This document shows, one piece after another, positions 2,250-64,000 of a DNA stretch of 64,000 nucleotides. Origin of the DNA: Bryoerythrophyllum caledonicum (lineage: Eukaryota; Streptophyta; Bryopsida; Pottiales; Pottiaceae); the NCBI GenBank assembly GCA_963971425.1, contig OZ020517.1, positions 13,890,501-13,954,500 of the forward strand, read 5' to 3'. Under the pieces are notes generated by a model. It searched no databases, had not been told where the DNA came from, and saw only the letters and a list, made by a program, of their open reading frames with translations. Both the position numbers and the translations under genes were made by a program. Numbering within the stretch: position 1 is the first letter of the stretch; each line of letters starts with the position of its first letter.

Positions 2250-4100
2250 CATCCAATTGACTACTCACTGGTAGACATATAGTTATACTCTCACATATAA
2301 TGATTGATCATTTATAAGATTCACAAGTAGAGCTAATTTGACAGAATTGCAATTTCAAGTGATCCAATGTGAAGCACGATACATATGATACATCCAAAAA
2401 GCCATCATATTGGTATAAGAAGGTATTCCTGACCTGGATTTTAATTGTGAGTATCAGAGGGCGTGGTACCGGAGTTCAACGCCGCTCTATATGACGATAT
2501 CACCAATCAGTCTTCGTTGCCAAAACTTATGCTCTTCTTTTCGTTCCAAAATCTTTACAACTTGACTATAACAAACACATTAGTGTCATTATATAACACA
2601 TGATGAAAACAACCTAAAATCTTTATATATCAACTCCTAAAATTCATTTATAATTTTACATTAAATATAGGTACTAATTGTTGATCCTACTCCAAAGTGT
2701 AAATTAGAAGTCAACAACATTTATTTGATGTTCTAATTATTACATCTCAACAATGATCCATTGATCAATATAATTATCAAAAGGACATAAATGTACTGCC
2801 ATGGAATACGCTACGGGAGTAATATCGCCATAGGATGATGAAGACTCTGAGGTCATACCGTAGCTAAGCATACATGATGTTTAGGTGACTAGTACAGTGT
2901 GATTGGTATATTTGCTTTAGAGACGGTTTGTTTGATTGTAGTATATGATCTTTGTAGTATTCAATAGTTATATCATGTATGGTTTTATATATATGAAAAA
3001 TATAGAGTTCTAAACCTCACACTTCATCATTGTATTGCATGCTTTATCATTACATCTCCTACAAATTGTATTTGTAACACAACACTAAAATTTATTTAAA
3101 ATCATATAAAATTTATTTCATGCAACAAATTGTATATGAATAGTTTCTTGTAAGTACATGGTCAATGTTATATTGTCAATGGAATAAAAATGAAATACCG
3201 TAATCATATATTATGCATAATCTTACCAAAATGGTGAAAATGATTTACTTATGTACACATTGAGAAACCAATATTCAATGAAATTGTCACAAAAATATAG
3301 CAAAGAAAAAATAGGGATTGTCGGATTTTTTTTCCTTCCAAAAGACATTTTCGCTCAAAATCTTGTTGTTATTGAGCGCCAATTAGCGCACTTGGCCAAG
3401 TGCATAATTGCTTAATTGCATGTTTATGGTGTTTGTGTTGTGATTTATAGAAGGGTGGAATGGGGGTGGGTGTGTATATTTAGGAATGGGTTCAAAGCAT
3501 CTCATTTTTTCCCTAGTTAGTTCATGTGGGAGAAATGGGAAGTGTAGTTGGATTATGTTTTGTGTTGGGGTGAGTTTTGACTATGAATGAAGTCATATAT
3601 TTCTATGTGTATGGAGTCTTTATGTAGAATAATATTTTGGTTTTCTGCTAGGAATTTTGTGTACGGATGTTTTTTATTAATATGACGTTTGGGTTGATTG
3701 GGTAAGGTGGCTAGGTTGTTTAAGAGGGTGATAGTCCATTGTGTTGTATTGGTGTCTCGTGGAGCTAAGATTTGGTTGCACTCGTCTAGTGAAGGGTGGA
3801 TAGCAACGATTAAGGCATAGAAAATATGTGATGATGAATGTGCATTTTTTGGTTGAATGTAGTGTGCCATATGTGGAAATGTCATGTTATGTGTGTCGTC
3901 TAGTGTATGTGTGTTTTTTTAGTAAGAGGGCAAATATACCAGCAAGGTGTTGATATTTGGGGTGCAAATTTATAATATTTGGGACAAAATACATTTTTGT
4001 GCGTTAGTTATGGACTGCAAGGTGTGTTTTTATTGTGTTTGGAAAGGGACCGGGGTTTTTTTCAATGACTCGACTTAGAAGTATTAGAAGTTTGCAATGG
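2250..4100. other. AT-rich intergenic DNA
   Basis: No gene is recognised. From about 3400 to 4100 the plus strand is T/G-rich and the complementary frame at 3885-3553 is open, but its composition (Asn, His, Thr, Pro-rich) follows from base bias. No domain, splice structure or repeat boundary is visible. Confidence 0.35.
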
Positions 4101-4129
4101 AAAAGTTTGGTTGGCTATATTATATAATA

Positions 4130-4530
4130 TTGTTGGTGCCGTTGGTGTTGGTGTGGGTGTGGGTGTAGGTGGGGGTGTGGATGTGGGTGTGGGGAGGGGT
4201 GTTGGTGTGGATGTGGGTTGGGGTGTGGATGTGGGTGTGGGTGTGGGTGGGGGTGTTGGTGTGGGTGTGGGTTGGGGTGTGGATGTGGGTGTGGGTGAGG
4301 GTGTTGGTGTGGGTGTTGGTGTCGTTGTTGGTGTCGGTGTCGGTGTTGGTGTTCGTGTCAGTGTCGGTGTCGGTGTTGGTGTTGGTGTCGATGTTGGTGT
4401 TGGTGTTGTGTTGGTGTTGGTGTTGGTGTTGGTGTTGGTGTGGGTGTGGGTGTGGATGTGGGTGTGGGTGTTGGTGTCAGTGTCGTCGTCGTTCTTGTTG
4501 TTGTTGTTGTTGTTGTTGCTTCTTTGGATT
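4130..4530. repeat. GT-rich hexanucleotide array (GGTGTG/GGTGTT) and (TTG)n
   Basis: About 350 bp consist of interleaved GGTGTG, GGTGTT, GGTGTC and GGATGT units in near-perfect 6-bp register. A (TTG)n run follows at about 4493-4518. Two long open frames cross it (Val/Gly and Val/Trp repeats), but they are products of the 6-bp period and should not be called genes. The strand asymmetry (G on plus, C on minus) is strong, so the region could form G-rich secondary structures. Confidence 0.85.
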
Positions 4531-4599
4531 TTTTTGTTTTGTAATTATTTTTTATTTAGTATAGATATATACTATTGTGTATATTATTAATTTTTTGTT

Positions 4600-12863: not shown

Positions 12864-13049
12864 TGTGCAATTCACAATGGGACATTAAGAAAATGAGACT
12901 AGCATATCAGAGCAATGACAAGAGTACATACTGTAGGTTAGAATTCACACCCTCGTTACACAGAGGGCATATCAATAATGGAATAGTAACTAGAAAGAGA
13001 AAATCAAACCCATGTATATTAACGTTCTACAATTATATGTTCAGTGGAC
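12864..13049 (+). repeat. 186-bp direct repeat, copy A
   Basis: This segment (from TGTGCAATTCACAATGGG to TTCAGTGGAC) is repeated in the same orientation at 13759-13944, about 96 percent identical by eye (around eight substitutions). The pair brackets the ARABIDILLO exon fragment. The left junction with the fragment shares the hexamer GTGGAC, which is present both in the repeat end and in the parent gene. Confidence 0.9.
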
Positions 13050-13754
13050 AGGGATGCCATTCAGGCCTTGTTCCAGCATTGTAAAGGCCTTACTGAGCTC
13101 GGCTTCCTCGACAGTCATGCCATTGACGAGGGAGCATTCGGGTCTGCCACCAGCCTTCGGTTTTTGTCTGTTGCAGGATGCAGGTGTATAGCGTGGAACA
13201 CAGCAGCTCATTCTTGGAGCAAATTGCCGAACCTGGCTGGTCTGGATGTTTCCCGCACAGATATATCTCCAAGTGCGCTTACGCAGTTGCTAACTGCTCC
13301 CGAGCTGAAGGTGGTGTGCGCATTGAACTGTCCTGCTCTTGAGGAAGGTGGCAATCCCAAGCCCTCGTCGTCGTCAAAGACGACAGTCTTGCTCGCGCGG
13401 TTTACAGATCTCATCGAAGGCTTGGAGGTTTTACTATGCCCAAGGAATTCAAACGGTGCCTCTTCGTCGGGAAGATCAGGCTTTGGCAATCGCACTCGTC
13501 TTGACCTGGAAATTGCGGAGTGGACCGAGTGGATGTTATCTCATGCGCTTTTGAAAATTGCAGAGTAATGCACCAAGTTTGGACAGATTCTGGCTCAGGC
13601 AGGGCACTGGTATGATGCTTCGACTAGTTCAAAGTGCTCAGGAGGATGTACAGGAAAGAGCCGCCACTGCTTTGGCTACCTTTGTGGTTGTCGATGATGA
13701 AAACGCCACTGTCGACTCTGCAAGGGCGGAAGCTGTGATGAACGGTGGTGGTAT
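13044..13754 (+). pseudogene. ARABIDILLO exon-1 fragment (711 bp)
   Basis: This is a near-identical copy of the parent gene segment 20404-21116. By eye there are three substitutions and one 2-bp deletion over 711 bp. The deletion turns the parent GCAGAGAGTAATG into GCAGAGTAATG and creates an immediate TAA stop, so the copy cannot continue the frame. It covers the leucine-rich part and the start of the armadillo part. It lacks the F-box, all introns (the source lies entirely in exon 1) and the downstream exons. It has no own promoter or start. It lies in the same orientation as the parent, about 7 kb upstream of it. The high identity means it is recent or kept uniform by gene conversion. Confidence 0.95.
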
Positions 13755-19293: not shown

Positions 19294-19734
19294 GGTAATC
19301 GGTTTTGTTGCGCGAGCACTTCTTTTCACTTGGATTTTTAGGTTTGGAGTTTTGTGTTGGTGTTGGTGTTATTTTGGAGGGGTTGGTGATGAGGAGGTGG
19401 AGGTGGAAGAGAAGTGTAGGAGAAATTGAAGTTTGAGTTGGTTGTTGGAATTGGTCTCTTATTCGTGTGTTGTTCTTGTTTGGGTTCAAATTTGAGTGTA
19501 GTAGTTGCTGTTTCTGTGGAGGTTGGAGGAGTGACGAGGAGGCGGAGGAGTGCAGGAGCTTGAATTCGTGGTTGGAGTTTGCGGTTGGAATCCGAGGAGG
19601 GACCGGAGTTTCGGCTGCTGGAGGGAATTGATTGGATATGAGGGGGCTCAGGGGGCGGGTTGTGTGACGATGGTGAGAATTAGGGTGAAGGAGTGGATCT
19701 GAGGAGAAAGGGAGAGTGTGATGGTGTGTTGGCG

Positions 19735-22700
19735 ATGAAGCGGGGGATTGTAGGAGCTGGGGAGGATATGTCCACCAAGCGGCGGCGGCATGCGGGTGCG
19801 GAGGATGGGGAGCAACAGCCGGTGGTGGTGTACAAGAAGGCGAGAATTACTTCATCGTCGACATCTTCGGCGGCGTCGACTTGCGGTGGTGCGCCGGCGG
19901 TTTGTGCTGCGGAGCCGGCAGCTGTGATTCTGGAAGGGCGGGATGCGCACTGGACGGGGTTGCCGGATGACACTATGCTCGGATTGTTCAATCTCTTGAA
20001 TCACCGGGATAGGGCGAGTTTGGCATCTGTGTGCAAGACATGGCGGGCGCTGGGGAGCTCGGCATCGTTATGGAGTTCGTTGGATCTGCGGGCTCATACG
20101 CTGGATTTGGAGATGGTATCGGCGCTCTCTGGCCGGTGCTCACACTTGCAGAGTCTGAAATTTCGCGGAGGGGCGTTTGCTAGTTCGATTGTGGGGTTGC
20201 AAGCGAGGGAGCTGAGGGAGCTGAGTGGTGACTGTTGCAGCCATCTTTCGGATGCGACACTGTCGATGGTTGTAGCTCGGCATTGCAACCTGGAGAGCTT
20301 GCAGCTAGGTTCGGATTGCGAGAGAGTCACGAGTGAGGCATTGAAGGTAGTGGCAGTTTGTTGCCCTAAGTTGCAACGCCTGTGCATCTCAGGGATTAGG
20401 GACGTGGACAGGGATGCCATTCAGGCCTTGTTCCAGCATTGTAAAGGCCTTACTGAGCTCGGCTTCCTCGACAGTCATGCCATTGACGAGGGAGCATTCG
20501 GGTCTGCCACCAGCCTTCGGTTTTTGTCTGTTGCAGGATGCAGGTGTATAGCGTGGAACACAGCAGCTCATTCTTGGAGCAAATTGCCGAACCTGGCTGG
20601 TCTGGATGTTTCCCGCACAGATATATCTCCAAGTGCGCTTACGCAGTTGCTAACTGCTCCCGAGCTGAAGGTGGTGTGCGCATTGAACTGTCCTGCTCTT
20701 GAGGAAGGTGGCAATCCCAAGCCCTCGTCGTCGTCAAAGACGACAGTCTTGCTCGCGCGGTTTACAGATCTCATCGAAGGCTTGGAGGTTTTACTATGCC
20801 CAAGGAATTCAAAGGGTGCCTCTTCGTCGGGAAGATTAGGCTTTGGCAATCGCACTCGTCTTGACCTGGAAATTGCGGAGTGGACCGAGTGGATGTTATC
20901 TCATGCGCTTTTGAAAATTGCAGAGAGTAATGCACCAAGTTTGGACAGTTTCTGGCTCAGGCAGGGCACTGGTATGATGCTTCGACTAGTTCAAAGTGCT
21001 CAGGAGGATGTACAGGAAAGAGCCGCCACTGCTTTGGCTACCTTTGTGGTTGTCGATGATGAAAACGCCACTGTCGACTCTGCAAGGGCGGAAGCTGTGA
21101 TGAACGGTGGTGGTATTGCTTTGCTTTTAGGACTCGCTAAGTCCTGTCGTGAGGGGGTGCAATCCGAAGCTGCCAAGGTAATATTTGTTCTTTGTGAATA
21201 TTCTGGATTGGGAGTCTGTGATTGTGGTGATTTGCAGAATATTTAGCAGCTTAGAGGTTGCTGTCATAAATATTCCATATGTAATAGGGCATGGGCATGG
21301 GCAATTGATTTAGGAGACAGGCTAATGCTCTTCGATATTTATTTCTGATGCACTCGCCGTGTATGTGTTTCGACATTATTCCAATTATTAACTCTTGTAA
21401 TTAAAATTAAGATTTTACCATGTTCACAATGACTGTTGTGTTGCTAAAGTGGTTGATGTGCTTCTCAGTCTTCAGCATCGTATGTGTAGAATATACTATC
21501 TTCTAATCTCATGTTCTTTTTTAGTTATTTTACTTGCTTAATGATCTTGTAGGCCATCGCAAATTTATCGGTCAACACAGAAGTTGCCAAAAGAGTTGCT
21601 TTGGAAGGGGGAATCTGTATTTTGGCTGCCCTGGCTAGGTCTCCTAATCGGTGGGTTGCTGAGGAAGCAGCGGGGGGCTTATGGAACCTCTCAGTTGGGG
21701 AAGAACACAAGGTAACTTGCCATATCTTCCAATTCTCCTCTGGTTTTTGTTGGGGTGTACATAATATTTGATATAATTATTGTGCAATGAAAGTATTTTG
21801 TAAGCTCGGAATTGCTGAATGAGGCGTCAATAAGCATGCGTTTGAATTCTCTGATCGATGCTACTTGCGGCTATATTTTGCGCACTCATGTGTAAGACTG
21901 TTATGTAAACAGGGCGCCATAGCTGGAGCTGGGGCGATTGAAGCCTTGGTAGATCTGGCATTTAAGTGGTCTGCTGGAGGAGAAGGTGTCTTGGTGAGCA
22001 CCTGCATTACTTATCGGTTGATGTGTATTTTTCATTTGATAAGAACCAAGCGTTGCCCCATTGTGATCCGTATTTTAAGATTCAAAGTTATTGCAAGTGT
22101 GATTTGTTGAGAGTGTGTAAAAAAATTGAATGGAACTTTCTCAGTATATAATAAAAAAAAGATATTAACAAGAGGAAAACTTTATCGTTATGGTAATGGC
22201 GTAGTTTGCTGCAATGATACAGCGATTTTTATGCTTAGCATTTCGTGTAATGTTTTTTTGCGCGGGTGTGGTTGGACGCCATTTTGTTTTTCTTATAAAT
22301 AGATTTTCAAAGAGTTATTTTATCCTTACTAGTCAAATGAACGTAGGATAATTGTGAAAACAGTTGACCTTGATATCGAGCATTTATGTCTGGGTAGCAG
22401 GAGAGAGCAGCAGGTGCGCTGGCCAATCTAGCAGCTGATGATAAGTGTAGCATGGAAGTTGCGACGGCTGGTGGTGTACGGGCTCTTGTTATGCTTGCAC
22501 GCTTTTGCCAACATGAAGGGGTGCAAGAGCAGGTATCAACCCACTTGAACAATCTGGGAACCTCAAGTTGGTCCTGCAAATTCAATTATTTTTCTTATTA
22601 AGTCTAAACCTTGAGTTTTTTGGGGGAAGGGGGGCGCCTAGAATCTGATATGTCTTCTCCATCGTTGTTTTTGTTATATTGCAGGCGGCACGGGCATTGG

Positions 22701-47202: not shown

Positions 47203-48248
47203 CTACTCGTCATCCTCTTCTTCATCATCATCACCACCGGAAGCCTTCTTGGACGCAGCCTTCGCGTTCTTGCGCTTCACTCTTCCAGGTCTGCCACCAC
47301 CAAGTGGACTCGACAGAGCGAAGTCGATATGCTTCTGGCTGTCGACGCGGACCATGAATGATGGAACATCAACGATCTGCTTGCCGACCCTGCAAGTCAA
47401 AGAATACGAAATGAGAACTTCGGAATAAACCCTAAAAGTACGAGAATCGACAAAAATGCTCGTATTAAAGACGCTGCAAAATTCTCGACAAGTACGATTT
47501 GTTCTCTAAAAAACCCGCTCGCATTGTTATTGCTAACTAAAGAATCATGTCCAACCGAATGCACCCGCGTTGCACCTAAAGGCAACATCACGACCACTGA
47601 AAGCACTGACCTGATGTGACGCTGCTTGATGAGGACACGGGCATGATGGATGGACTTGGCCATGCCAGACTTGAAGACAAGAGTCTGCAGCCTCCGCTCT
47701 AAGAAGCTCTCCACAGTGAGCGCCAGCACGTAATCGAGCTTGTTCTGGCTCTCATCGAGCAGCCCATACCTGTTCATGCGCCGCAAAAGCGCCTCTCCCT
47801 CAAAGATACGACGAGTGCTCTTCTCGTCCAAGGTCAACAACATACGCGCATTATTGCGGACACGACTCAGAGCGTACTGCACCCTCCACAGCTCGCGCTT
47901 GTTGCGCAGACCATACTCACCGACCAGCTTCAGCTCCGCATCCAACCGCTCCTTCTCGAACGGCCTGCGCGGCTTCTTGAAAGTCTTCCCATCTACACAC
48001 AAAAAAAAACCGAATCAGCAAAACCCCAAACCCTAACACACCATCACATGAGTCCACCACCACATCTATCTGCTCACAAAACAAAACTTAAACCCTGGCT
48101 CCACGTCAAAATCTTCCCAAACCCTAGAATGATCGAAAGATGCCAGTTCCGGGGAAATATGCGGTAAATACAGGCTCGTTGGCACGGCGAGAGGAGGACG
48201 AAGCGGGAGAGGAGACTTACAATTGCGGAAGGAGGCGACGTGCACCAT
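47203..48248 (-). CDS. RPS9: 40S ribosomal protein S9 (uS4), 3 exons
   Basis: Early-assembling small-subunit rRNA-binding protein. Exons are 48248-48221 (MVHVASFRN and one base), 47992-47611 and 47389-47203, giving 198 residues, the family length. Features: [20 protein letters not shown], the S4 RNA-binding fold with [20 protein letters not shown] and [37 protein letters not shown], a basic stretch [14 protein letters not shown] and an acidic tail [11 protein letters not shown]. All junctions are in frame with GT-AG borders. CCCTAACCCTAG at about 48363-48374, upstream of the start, is a telomere/telo-box-like motif. It appears intact. Confidence 0.97.
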
Positions 48249-50742: not shown

Positions 50743-51860
50743 TCAAGGTATGTTTTCAATATTTGATATGGAAGTGAGTGCGACAAGTTGTTCTAGAGTG
50801 CCAATGGTTTGATTTTGGTGATGGACACATATTATTTGTAATGTAGATGGTTTGAGCCGAGGCTTTTTGAGTTTGGGTGGAATAGTCGCTTCTTTGTTTT
50901 GTACTGAATTTTCTTTAAATTGTGCTATGATATAGGAGTCTGGAAATGGCCATGAGTATTGATCAAAGTTATGGTACCAGTTTCTATCCGGTGTAATAAT
51001 GAGAACAAGGGTGTGGTTTGGATCGTGTTTGGCAGCAAGATGGGCCCAATGTAGTGCTTGATGTGTTTTATTTTCATTTTGGAGGTGTGCTATTCCATTA
51101 CCGATCCATTTGTGGTCGAAAGCTTTTCCCAAGGAACCAAATATTTTGTCCCTCCTAAGAGATGAGTAGAATTTTGTGAGTTTGGTGGAGCAGTTGACAG
51201 AGGATAAAAAGTATGAATGTTGGATGTTGAAAGATGCAATTAATGAGTCTAGGATGGGTGTGGGTAGTGTGTATTGTGCAAATTTGAGGGGGTTAATTTT
51301 TGGGATTTTATATTTATATCTTTGGTATAGCCAATTAATTTCAGTTTCAAATGATTGAGTGGTTTGTTCAATGTTTGTAGGAGTTTGTAGTTTCATGTTT
51401 ATTGATTCCATAGCCATTGGAGTCTAGTGATACAAAAGGTGAATAAATGTCTGCAATTATCTTTGTAAAAGATGTGCTTGGTCGTTATTTATTCTAATTG
51501 TGTTAGATGATGTGAGAATGTCATTTTTGGGGTTACATTTTGTTGTATAGATGTTTAGCAGGGGGATAATTATAGGTGGGGTAACGGATCTTGAGTCTTG
51601 AAGTTGTTCTTGAAGGTAGTAGGCTTGAATGATTTCAGGGTAAAATTTGTTTTGGGTTCTTTGATAATAGTGTGTTCTCTTTTGGTATTGTATGTGGGGA
51701 TGTTACAGTCGTGCCATGGGAGGAGGCTTCTTTGGAGGAGCCATTTGATGTAGATATTATTGTTGTGTTGCCATTGGCACAAATATTTGGTATTGTTCTT
51801 TTTTATGTTGTTAGAGTCGGTGTGTTGCTCATGTCTATGGTCTATAATGTTATTGATGGA
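50743..51860 (-). pseudogene. LINE ORF2 linker region, unknown domain
   Basis: A 224-codon open stretch (51417-50743) reads LYQRYKYKIPKINPLKFA, GKAFDHKWIGNGIAHLQ, LHWAHLAAKHDPNHTLVLI, TPDRNWYHNFDQYSWPFPD and LQIICVHHQNQTIGTLEQL. Upstream, 51782-51570 reads WLLQRSLLPWHDCN. The NHTLVLIITPDRNWY part resembles a domain that accompanies LINE-type reverse transcriptases in some plants and algae. I have no name for it. It carries the longest intact frame left in this LINE. Confidence 0.6.
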
Positions 51861-53049: not shown

Positions 53050-54290
53050 TTAGTTTAGATGGGATATAGTGGATGGCTTGTAGATTTTTAAAGCATGCCT
53101 TTATCGTTTAGAGCCTTTTCGAGTTGTTCGCTTATGCACCAAAATAGGCATTTTTGGAAAGAGAAAGATTGAAGTCCAAATAAATTGTGTGGGAGTTGGT
53201 TATTGCATTTGACATACAATTTGGCATACCTCATATGGTCTTTTGTACAACCATAATTTTTTTATCAAGTTTTTTAATAGCTGGCATAGAGTATGGCACA
53301 ACGTAGAAGTTGTATGATATGCCTGGTCTTATTACCGTGTCAATCATTTTTATTTTTTGTTTCATAGTGGCCGGGACATGTTGTCAGTTCTTTGCATTGT
53401 TTTAATAGTTTTGTGGTTGTGGTATGGATTTGTATTTTGTATTTCAATGAAGGAACAAGGTTTGTGCCTTGGTATAAATATGGTTCGTTTTGGTGTAGTA
53501 CATGGATTGGGTGGTTACGAGAGATGATGTTAGTAGCTTGCAATAGGGCTTTGAAGGAGGTTGGTTCATTTTGAATTTATTTAGATATCCTGTGGCAGCA
53601 CATTTTGGGATGCCAATGTCCATACCAATCCATTTGCAGAATTTATCGATTTTATTGAGTTGTATTTGTAGTGCTTTAAGTATACTAGTTCTGGCGGCAA
53701 GGTTGTCAGAATAAACGGTTGAGTTTATAGTGACTTGTGATGTACCAAAATGATAGCCATTGTTTCTTCTTTGTAATTATTGTAACAATGGTTCCAAAAA
53801 TATAATAAATAGATATGGACTACAAGTATCTTTTTGAATGGTTCTTTGTTGAATGGGGATAGATTGAGTTTTTCCAAAATGTTTGCCAGTGTAGTAGGTT
53901 GAAGATTGGGAGTATATTTTTTCAACAAAGAGTGGTTGCATCAGTTGGGTATCCAAGGTCGGTCATTATTGCTAGGAATCGGGCATGATCAATAGAACCA
54001 AATGCATTTTTGAACTCTATGAATGGAATATATATGTTTTGATGTGTAAAGCGTGCATCTTCTAGCGCTCCTACTATAGTTTGGATTTGTTTAGAAGTAC
54101 TTCTCTCTACTCTAAATCCTTCTTGCCTATTGTGTAGGATTTTGTATTTTTCTCCATATGAGGATAGTATGGAAGTTAGTGTATTTGTGTAGAGTTTGTA
54201 TAATATATTGGCTAATGCAATTGGTATGTGGTTTGGCAATATTGAAGGATCATCTTTTTTATATTATAGAATTGTTGCACTAGTTCTCGA
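53050..54290 (-). pseudogene. LINE reverse transcriptase, catalytically dead
   Basis: The RT palm is readable: IPIALANILYKLYTNTLTSI, RQEGFRVERSTSKQIQTIV, IEFKNAFGSIDHARFLAIM (first catalytic region, FDFK-type now EFKNAF). After a frameshift comes TPNLQPTTLANILEKLNLSP. The usual YADD box reads VYSDNLAAR (about 53715-53695), so the second catalytic aspartate is asparagine. The thumb/C-terminal part follows with QATNIISRNHPIHVL, YSMPAIKKLDKKI and stops. In LINEs this enzyme performs target-primed reverse transcription. This copy cannot. Confidence 0.8.
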
Positions 54291-55063: not shown

Positions 55064-55556
55064 CAATAACTAGTAAATCGCAAGAGTAGTCAAGCGTCTT
55101 GCACTCTACAAAGAGAGAATCAACAAGTGCAAGTAGTATACAAGAATGCGGAGCCTTTACTAATGATAATCAATCACTTACAAGCAAAGGTAATTTGTCA
55201 TGGGACGTGGCGTCAAGGGCCTCTCCGCATTGTAGTGCTCTAGCGTAGATTAGTTTGTTACTAATATACGATTCTAGAGACGTACGACAACACACCACAT
55301 TCATCCATGGACGATTTTCACCTAATATTTAGGATTGTGTGTGAGCCTATAGCGTCGCACACGTCCTTGACTTGACGTCTTTGTCAAAGTCAAGCTTTGT
55401 GAGTGAACTAAAGAGTGTTTAGTGATTACCTTTGCTTGTTAGTGATGGTTTATCATTAGTACAGGCTTTGCATTCTCTTATACTACTTGCACTTGTTGAT
55501 TCTTCCTTTGTGGAGTGAGACACTTGACTACTCTTGTGATTTATTAGTTATTCACT
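55064..55556. mobile_element. foldback DNA element with ~130-bp terminal inverted repeats
   Basis: The left arm 55064-55192 (AATAACTAGTAAATCGCAAG to AAGCAAAGGTAAT) matches the reverse complement of 55425-55556 with few mismatches. The shared core is AGTAGTCAAG, AATCAACAAGTGCAAGTAGT and CTAATGAT. The ~230-bp centre is unique and no protein is encoded. Long TIRs suggest a Mutator-like or foldback element. No target duplication was clear. A second copy, in inverse orientation, begins near 62590. Confidence 0.8.
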
Positions 55557-62592: not shown

Positions 62593-62801
62593 GTGAATAT
62601 CTATTAAATCACAGGAGTAGTCAAGCGTCTTGCACTCCACAAAGGGAGAATCAACGAGTGCAAGTAGTATAAGAGAATGCAGAGCCTTTACTAATGATAA
62701 ACCATCACTTACAAACAAAGGTAATCACTAAACACTCTTTAGTTCACTCACAAAGCTTGTCTTGACAAAGACGTCAAGTCAAGGACCTGTGCAACGCTAT
62801 A
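62593..62801. mobile_element. second foldback element copy, split by a Tc1 element
   Basis: The segment matches the reverse complement of 55340-55556 (AGTAGTCAAGCGTCTTGCAC, AAGTAGTATAAGAGAATGCA, CACTCTTTAGTTCACTCAC, GACGTCAAGTCAAGGAC). It stops at TA (62800-62801), where the Tc1-type element begins. Its other half would lie beyond the window's end if the insertion is simple. Confidence 0.8.
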
Positions 62802-64000
62802 CAGTGGTCAGCAGAAGTGTTCGGACAGTAATTACAATCTCAATTTAATAGTAACACTTGTCGAGTTTGGTAGGTAGGTGCTGATTTTTTCAGCTAATTA
62901 TAACTAAAGAGCCACTTGTAAACTAGAAAGAGTACCATCATTCACATTGAGCCACTTGCATGGGCTGCAGTTCATGATGTGTCAATCATGGGTGTCCAAT
63001 TTATTATGCACACAAGTTGTGCATCTGAAAAATCTTGAGAATCGACATGTATTTATGGAGACCTCTTGCATTTCAAGACACATTGTGATTGAATAAGATT
63101 GCTCTTGATTAGCTATGGCTCCTAGAAGGACTCTTGCTGAACGTAAGTTAGTTCTTCAGATGCATGAGAGAGGGAATTCGTACTCCGAAATTTCAGCGGT
63201 TCTAGGCATCTCTCGAAGCACTTGCCATGCTATTGTGCGGAGGTTTACAATGAGAGGTCATTTGAGAGATGCTCCTTCACAAGGGAGACCTCGAATTCTT
63301 GATGAACGTGGTGATCGTGAGGTTGTAAGGTTGTTGAATGCACCATCTAATGGTACAGCTGCAGCAGTGGGTAGAGAAATGCGATCTCAAGGATTGGATT
63401 TGAGTGATGATACAATTAGAAGATGTCTTCAGAGGCAAGGATTGAGAGCACGAGTGAAAACTAAGAAGCCATTCTTGTCAAAGAAACACAAAGCACATCG
63501 ATATGCATGGGCAAAGAAGTGTAGGCATGCAAGTTGGATGGACTGGAGTTATGTGGTTTTTTCAGATGAGTCAAAATTCAATTTGTTTGGCTCAGATGGG
63601 AGGCAGTATTGTTGGAGGAAGAGAGGAGAGCATCTTTTAGATCAGCATGTGCAACCTACTATCAAATTTGGAGGTGGAAACATTATGGTTTGGGGATGTA
63701 TGACTTGGGAGGGAATTGGCAACCTTCGTCTTATAGAAGGAAACATGGATAAGTTTGTGTATCGTGAAATTTTGGAGATGGAGCTCATGAATACTATACA
63801 CATGTATGATTTAGGAGAGGAGAATGTTATTTTTCAGCACGACAACGATCCCAAACATACTTCTAAGTATGTTACAGATTGGTTGTTAGCACAGAAGTTT
63901 CAACTAATTTGGCATCCGGCTCAATCTCCTGACTTGAATCCTATAGAACACCTTTGGAATGAAGTAGATTGTCGTATGAGAATGTCAAAGAAGAAACCCA
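62802..64000 (+). mobile_element. Tc1/mariner-superfamily transposon, left part (continues past window)
   Basis: The left end reads CAGTGGTCAGCAGAAGTGTT directly after TA (62800-62801), the dinucleotide target of the superfamily. A ~310-bp 5' region precedes the transposase start. The right end is outside the window, so the inverted repeat and second TA could not be checked. Confidence 0.85.
63115..64000 (+). CDS. Tc1-type DD34E transposase, intact to window edge
   Basis: Cut-and-paste transposase with 295 codons visible and no stop or frameshift. The frame is open at the right edge, and the family is about 330-350 residues long. Start ATG at 63115 (MAPRRTLAERKL). An N-terminal helix-turn-helix spans about residues 8-45 (YSEISAVLGISRSTCHAIVR), followed by the GRPR motif (57-60) and a second HTH (about 65-115). 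The DDE domain has D151 in FSDESKFNLFGSDG, the Tc1 signature GGGNIMVWGCMTW (186-198), D243 in FQHDNDPKHTS and E278 in SPDLNPIEHLWN. There are exactly 34 residues between D243 and E278, so it is DD34E. Plant mariner-like transposases are normally DD39D. This sequence style is commoner in fungi and animals. Recently active or recently acquired is plausible. Confidence 0.95.
   Translation, partial: MAPRRTLAERKLVLQMHERGNSYSEISAVLGISRSTCHAIVRRFTMRGHLRDAPSQGRPRILDERGDREVVRLLNAPSNGTAAAVGREMRSQGLDLSDDTIRRCLQRQGLRARVKTKKPFLSKKHKAHRYAWAKKCRHASWMDWSYVVFSDESKFNLFGSDGRQYCWRKRGEHLLDQHVQPTIKFGGGNIMVWGCMTWEGIGNLRLIEGNMDKFVYREILEMELMNTIHMYDLGEENVIFQHDNDPKHTSKYVTDWLLAQKFQLIWHPAQSPDLNPIEHLWNEVDCRMRMSKKKP

Follow-up and report, generated by a model that had tools for sequence, protein, structure and literature searches.

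A Tc1-like DD34E transposon that very probably stems from a very recent burst in a land-plant nuclear genome

At the right-hand edge of the DNA analysed here (a 64-kb stretch, referred to hereafter as the window) lies the larger part of a transposon that is very probably an autonomous Tc1-like (DD34E) cut-and-paste element, the product of a very recent burst of a single sequence in a land-plant nuclear genome. The family would have amplified very recently from one sequence (at least 111 copies at 97% identity or more, several identical), and would insert by cut-and-paste at TA dinucleotides, duplicating the TA, a mode suggested by the structure of the element, the target duplications and the paralogous empty sites that we observe. 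The element is of a familiar type, but its burst is unusually recent. Judged from the likeness of the copies, transposition appears to be recent or still going on; the transposase biochemistry of the family we infer by analogy.

Structure of the element and its transposase

The window corresponds to C4:13890501-13954500, contig C4 comprising 32,354,469 bases of an assembly of 437,360,962 bases in 894 contigs. From 62802 onward, directly after a TA, the sequence has a Tc1-type end (CAGTGGTCAGC; CAGTGGTCAGCAGAAGTGTTCGGACAG), and an ATG at 63115 starts a forward-strand frame that stays open for 295 codons up to the window edge (63115-63999). This edge is an arbitrary cut inside C4 rather than a contig end, and the right part of the element, beyond it, supplies a perfect 27-bp inverted repeat and the second TA, and ends the frame with a stop following codon 341 (features collected in Table 1). 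An earlier note on this DNA had described a DD34E transposase of Tc1 type with an intact frame in a plant genome, with a GRPR motif and a TA-flanked terminus, and had proposed looking to the right of 64000 for the matching repeat, second TA and stop: the 295-codon frame, its HTH_Tnp_Tc3_2 and DDE_3 domains in Pfam, the triad D151/D243/E278, the GRPR (starting at residue 57) and the TA at 62800-62801 bear out that description, and all three features beyond the window are present.

Table 1. Features of the window copy and of its paralogous empty site (window positions unless a contig is given)
Feature	Position	Strand	Remarks
Tc1-like element	C4:13953302-13954968	+	1667 bp in all; first 1199 bp = window 62802..64000
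TA, left half of target-site duplication	62800..62801		right TA beyond window
Left terminal inverted repeat	62802..62828	+	27 bp, perfect match to right end
Transposase frame	63115..64000	+	341 codons in all; stop beyond window
N-terminal helix-turn-helix	63142..63306	+	residues 10-64; Pfam HTH_29
GRPR motif	63283-63294	+	residues 57-60, in N-terminal helix-turn-helix
HTH_Tnp_Tc3_2, second DNA-binding helix-turn-helix	63313..63519	+	residues 67-135; Pfam
DDE_3 catalytic domain	63553..63981	+	residues 147-289; Pfam
Catalytic triad	D151 at 63565, D243 at 63841, E278 at 63946	+
Older repeat, paralogous empty site of window copy	55194..55546	-	one TA

Both HTH_Tnp_Tc3_2 (E 7.7e-15) and DDE_3 (E 3e-14) exceed the Pfam curated cut-offs, and 34 residues separate D243 from E278, which is the DD34E arrangement. 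With this spacing, repeats that start with CAGT, a TA duplication and paired helix-turn-helix and DDE domains, the element has the characters of a Tc1-like DD34E transposon. As a structural yardstick only, we compared the transposase with Sleeping Beauty SB100X, a fish-derived engineered enzyme. This is its best solved relative (PDB 5cr4): the catalytic domain matches over residues 116-290 (E 7e-45), and the predicted fold of the transposase is fixed by this sequence match.

The 64-kb window holds no other copy of the element. Its 26-base end has no second match within the window at up to three mismatches, and none in 100 shuffles of the window, while the 14-base core occurs five times at the same tolerance (4.85 expected by chance); an Rfam search of the window gave no matches. 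Elsewhere in the window we note a piece of an F-box protein (Pfam F-box-like) with a near-identical, partial second copy about 7 kb away (13023-13568 and 19684-21246), a disrupted frame that matches PCIF1_WW weakly (50743-51423, E 5.2e-8) and lies near other pieces of an apparently old retroelement, and a long simple repeat (4062-4590) whose two strands read as Thr-Pro and Gly-Val.

Copies and insertion sites across the genome

The copy count that the earlier note had called for was approached by DNA and by protein. All 40 of the places scored among 604 candidates from the DNA search match the element almost in full at about 100%. The protein search returned 4011 candidates, and the 133 scored places include at least 111 copies at 97% identity or more (the matched part being without a stop in 100 of the 111), the remaining 22 lying at 68–71%; given this gap between 97% and 71%, the 133 scored places contain no older, decayed members of this family. 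Genome-wide, the inverted-repeat pattern, at up to two mismatches, was found at 114 forward and 113 reverse places, whereas the reversed control gave 0 in either orientation; although such a search would miss copies with diverged ends, these counts allow for few, if any, short non-autonomous copies whose ends are well preserved. At least four of the 114 forward places fall in a tandem array at C1:49219-59009 (L129, L130), where the inverted-repeat ends are 2031 bp apart and a full copy adjoins at the end. We read the first unit of this array and part of the second; in the first, the final 700 bp of the element (99.7%) are fused to a SET-domain piece (Pfam E 2.8e-9).

Seventy loci were read, 40 from the top of the DNA search and the others from the top of the protein search; one of the first 40, L080, has no left end and was dropped, and the other 69 represent 46 distinct insertions. 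The great majority are of one length (43 of 1667 bp, two of 1679 bp and one of 1666 bp), and 42 of the 46 keep all 341 codons. Compared with their commonest sequence, the 43 equal-length copies carry 0 to 4 changes (mean 1.44 bases, or 0.086%) and eight are identical, in keeping with the earlier note's claim that the element is young. Fifty of the changes are singletons and 6 occur in two copies each, a singleton-rich spectrum that is the shape of a star-like burst. Since these copies were chosen among the best matches, the mean divergence of the family is higher than 0.086%; of the copies read, the least similar one stood at the bottom of the protein list, with 9 substitutions over the first 1341 bp and an interrupted frame. 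The burst is young, yet 0.086% understates the spread of the family. If 5e-9 to 1e-8 substitutions per site per year are assumed, 0.086% would correspond to 86,000 to 173,000 years for this best-match sample. The balance of synonymous and nonsynonymous change within the family (26 and 12 changes over 813 and 210 sites) was set aside, as the changes are few and the sample was partly picked by protein similarity.

The window copy itself departs from the commonest sequence by four base changes, three of which alter the protein (R128H, R286C and I308F). The base change behind R286C recurs in another copy (L071); in the sister family described below, one copy has C at residue 286 too and another has H at 128. 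Because of the three protein changes the open frame is no proof of an active enzyme, and the window copy may or may not encode one.

The sites of insertion follow a common pattern. The target duplication is TA/TA in 45 of the 46 insertions and TA/TG in the other, and the flanks favour A(C/T)A on the left and T(G/A)T on the right, with A at −5 (34/46) and C/T at −4 (38/46) preceding the TA, and T at +2 (30/46), G/A at +3 (36/46) and T at +4 (38/46) following it. When the flanks of each insertion were joined and compared with the sequence available, a repeat spanning the junction was found for four of the 46, three of which (the window copy, L104 and L062) we examined base by base. The joined flanks of the window copy align with the older repeat (55546-55194) at 86% over 357 bp, with a single TA and an adjacent 2-bp gap; those of L104 align with their spanning repeat without gaps and with a single TA, making this the clean case; the repeat for L062 has a 6-bp gap at the junction and is hence not a clean empty site. 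The site into which L104 is inserted is a relative of window 53274-53670.

Some copies lie close together. Two identical copies about 3.4 kb apart have two changes in common but dissimilar flanks, the pattern that a local jump would leave, and another pair, 54 bp apart, has three changes in common. The two copies that are 12 bp longer (L108 and L111, 1679 bp) have 42 bp of one flank in common and may thus have arisen by duplication instead of two separate insertions.

Origin of the family

The same genome contains relatives of the family. A query with a sister protein yielded 4190 candidates; among the 118 scored, 50 are sister copies whose identity to one of them falls in a gradient from 100 down to 73% (36 of the 50 carry one or more stops), and the remaining 68 belong to the window copy's family, at 69–70% identity to the sister protein. 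The four sister elements read (L115 and L116 among them) are 1643–1644 bp long and resemble the window family in their 341 codons, start, CAGTGG ends, TA and DD34E motif region; the two families differ in protein (68–71% identity), and the sister copies are graded and mostly stop-bearing. Between the families dN is 0.195–0.215 against a dS of 0.89–1.05, which shows that the protein was under constraint. A search with HTH_Tnp_Tc3_2 (150 scored of 2727 candidates) added more Tc1-type families, whose open frames span 337, 339 and 353 codons, and in the control genomes gave matches in 0 of 14. These further families lie on many large contigs, and many of their copies are without stops.

We lean towards descent of both the window family and its sister from long-resident Tc1 elements of the host, with bursts from single surviving copies. 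The grading of the 50 sister copies, the length, ends and frame length that sister elements share, the constraint between the families and the presence of other Tc1-type frames in the same genome would all follow from such a history, even though the copies read include no intermediate between the two clades, repeated arrivals would give several families too, and constraint between families fits a transfer as well.

A recent entry into the plant lineage from a fungus or another eukaryote, followed by amplification, appears to us possible but doubtful; in its fuller form, in which a DD34E family crossed recently into a bryophyte-like plant, is still jumping and has given more than 100 nearly identical autonomous copies, several of them identical, with no decayed members among those scored, we consider it unlikely. 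Such an entry would leave a gap like that in the 133 scored places, where identity drops from 97% or more straight to 68–71%, and also the near-zero divergence among copies, and a published phylogeny, as far as the accessible part of the paper goes, puts the Physcomitrella elements PpTc1 and PpTc2 nearest to fungal ones and proposes transfer from fungi (Vendrell-Mir and others 2020, PMC7466625). The same gap, measured on 133 of 4011 candidates, could also come from one surviving copy that re-amplified: as read from these sequences, it favours either a recent arrival or a single re-amplified survivor, whereas the graded sister clade, with the same 341-codon frame, favours residence. Given that clade, re-amplification within a resident lineage accounts for the data no less well than a transfer, and the clade and the further Tc1-type families together would speak against a single isolated arrival. 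The collections searched for relatives comprise viral contigs, prokaryote genomes, phages and plasmids, with no eukaryotes among them. The phages, viral contigs and prokaryote genomes contained no relative of the transposase, and the plasmids contained one distant IS630 (25.3% identity); the pattern DNDPKHT occurred in 5 stretches of viral and 39 of prokaryote sequence, and none of them proved to be related (best E 0.25).

Contamination or an assembly artefact at a contig end, the former of which the earlier note had named as a result that would count against it, is very improbable. The assembly does hold foreign DNA, as judged from a second, different plastid contig (C821) beside C894, but the element is internal to the 32.35-Mb contig, and the scored copies sit on many large contigs with different flanks. 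The gene for uS4 14 kb away (window 47397-48014) has as its best matches six PDB chains which we take to be from plant ribosomes. Plastid fragments on large contigs are closer to C894 than to C821 in six of six cases (95.3–98.1% against 84.5–89.4% for four of them, and 82.9–83.9% against 75.2–75.9% for the other two).

Regarding the two plastid contigs themselves, C821 codes S at several sites where C894 codes L or F; these sites look like C-to-U RNA editing, and a second plant thus seems to be present, represented by C821. PsaA of C894 is identical to its best PDB chain, 8htu, at 736 of 750 positions, with 6l35 next, and PsaB of C821 also matches 8htu and 6l35 best. The chain 8htu is from the moss Physcomitrella, and 6L35 is listed as coming from this moss too (PMC7884438). 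The host is accordingly a land plant and most probably a bryophyte.

For the family, domestication of a transposase into a single-copy host gene can be dismissed: the frame is intact, but about 111 copies have inverted repeats and TA duplications.

Known plant relatives and significance

The earlier note regarded such an element as unusual for a plant, a view that published elements speak against: the accessible part of Liu and Yang (2014, PMC4054914) describes two DD34E elements with intact frames from Physcomitrella patens, PpTc1 and PpTc2, amplified one to two million years ago, together with DD34E pieces in nine angiosperms. In the portion available of a later study, no such sequences are recorded from Marchantia, Arabidopsis or rice (PMC7466625). 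The window element resembles PpTc1 and PpTc2 in its DD34E triad, CAGT ends, TA duplication, intact frames, recent amplification and plant host. On the published descriptions, however, PpTc1 and PpTc2 have lengths of 1584 and 1709 bp, and each has 338 codons and repeats of 33 bp (PMC4054914), compared with 1667 bp, 27-bp repeats and 341 codons here, so that, description against description, the window element is neither of the two. Mean divergence from the consensus likewise differs, about 2.2% for PpTc1 and PpTc2 (PMC4054914, as far as available) against 0.086% in our best-matching sample. A separate family of plant mariner-like elements, DD39D, belongs to the same Tc1/mariner superfamily and also targets TA; from the part of its description accessible to us, its third catalytic residue is a D at 39 (PMC7325037), where the window element has an E at 34. 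In the literature on other bryophytes we found nothing closer to the window family, though a closer relative may stand in print. As far as tested, then, the family is new, set apart from PpTc1 and PpTc2 by their descriptions.

In plants, Tc1-like DD34E elements are rare and little is known about them; with more than 100 near-identical, mostly open-framed copies, this family would be a promising candidate for a plant Tc1 element with natural activity. It would be useful for studying how plants silence newcomers and, given close relatives for comparison, for testing the published idea of transfer from fungus to moss.
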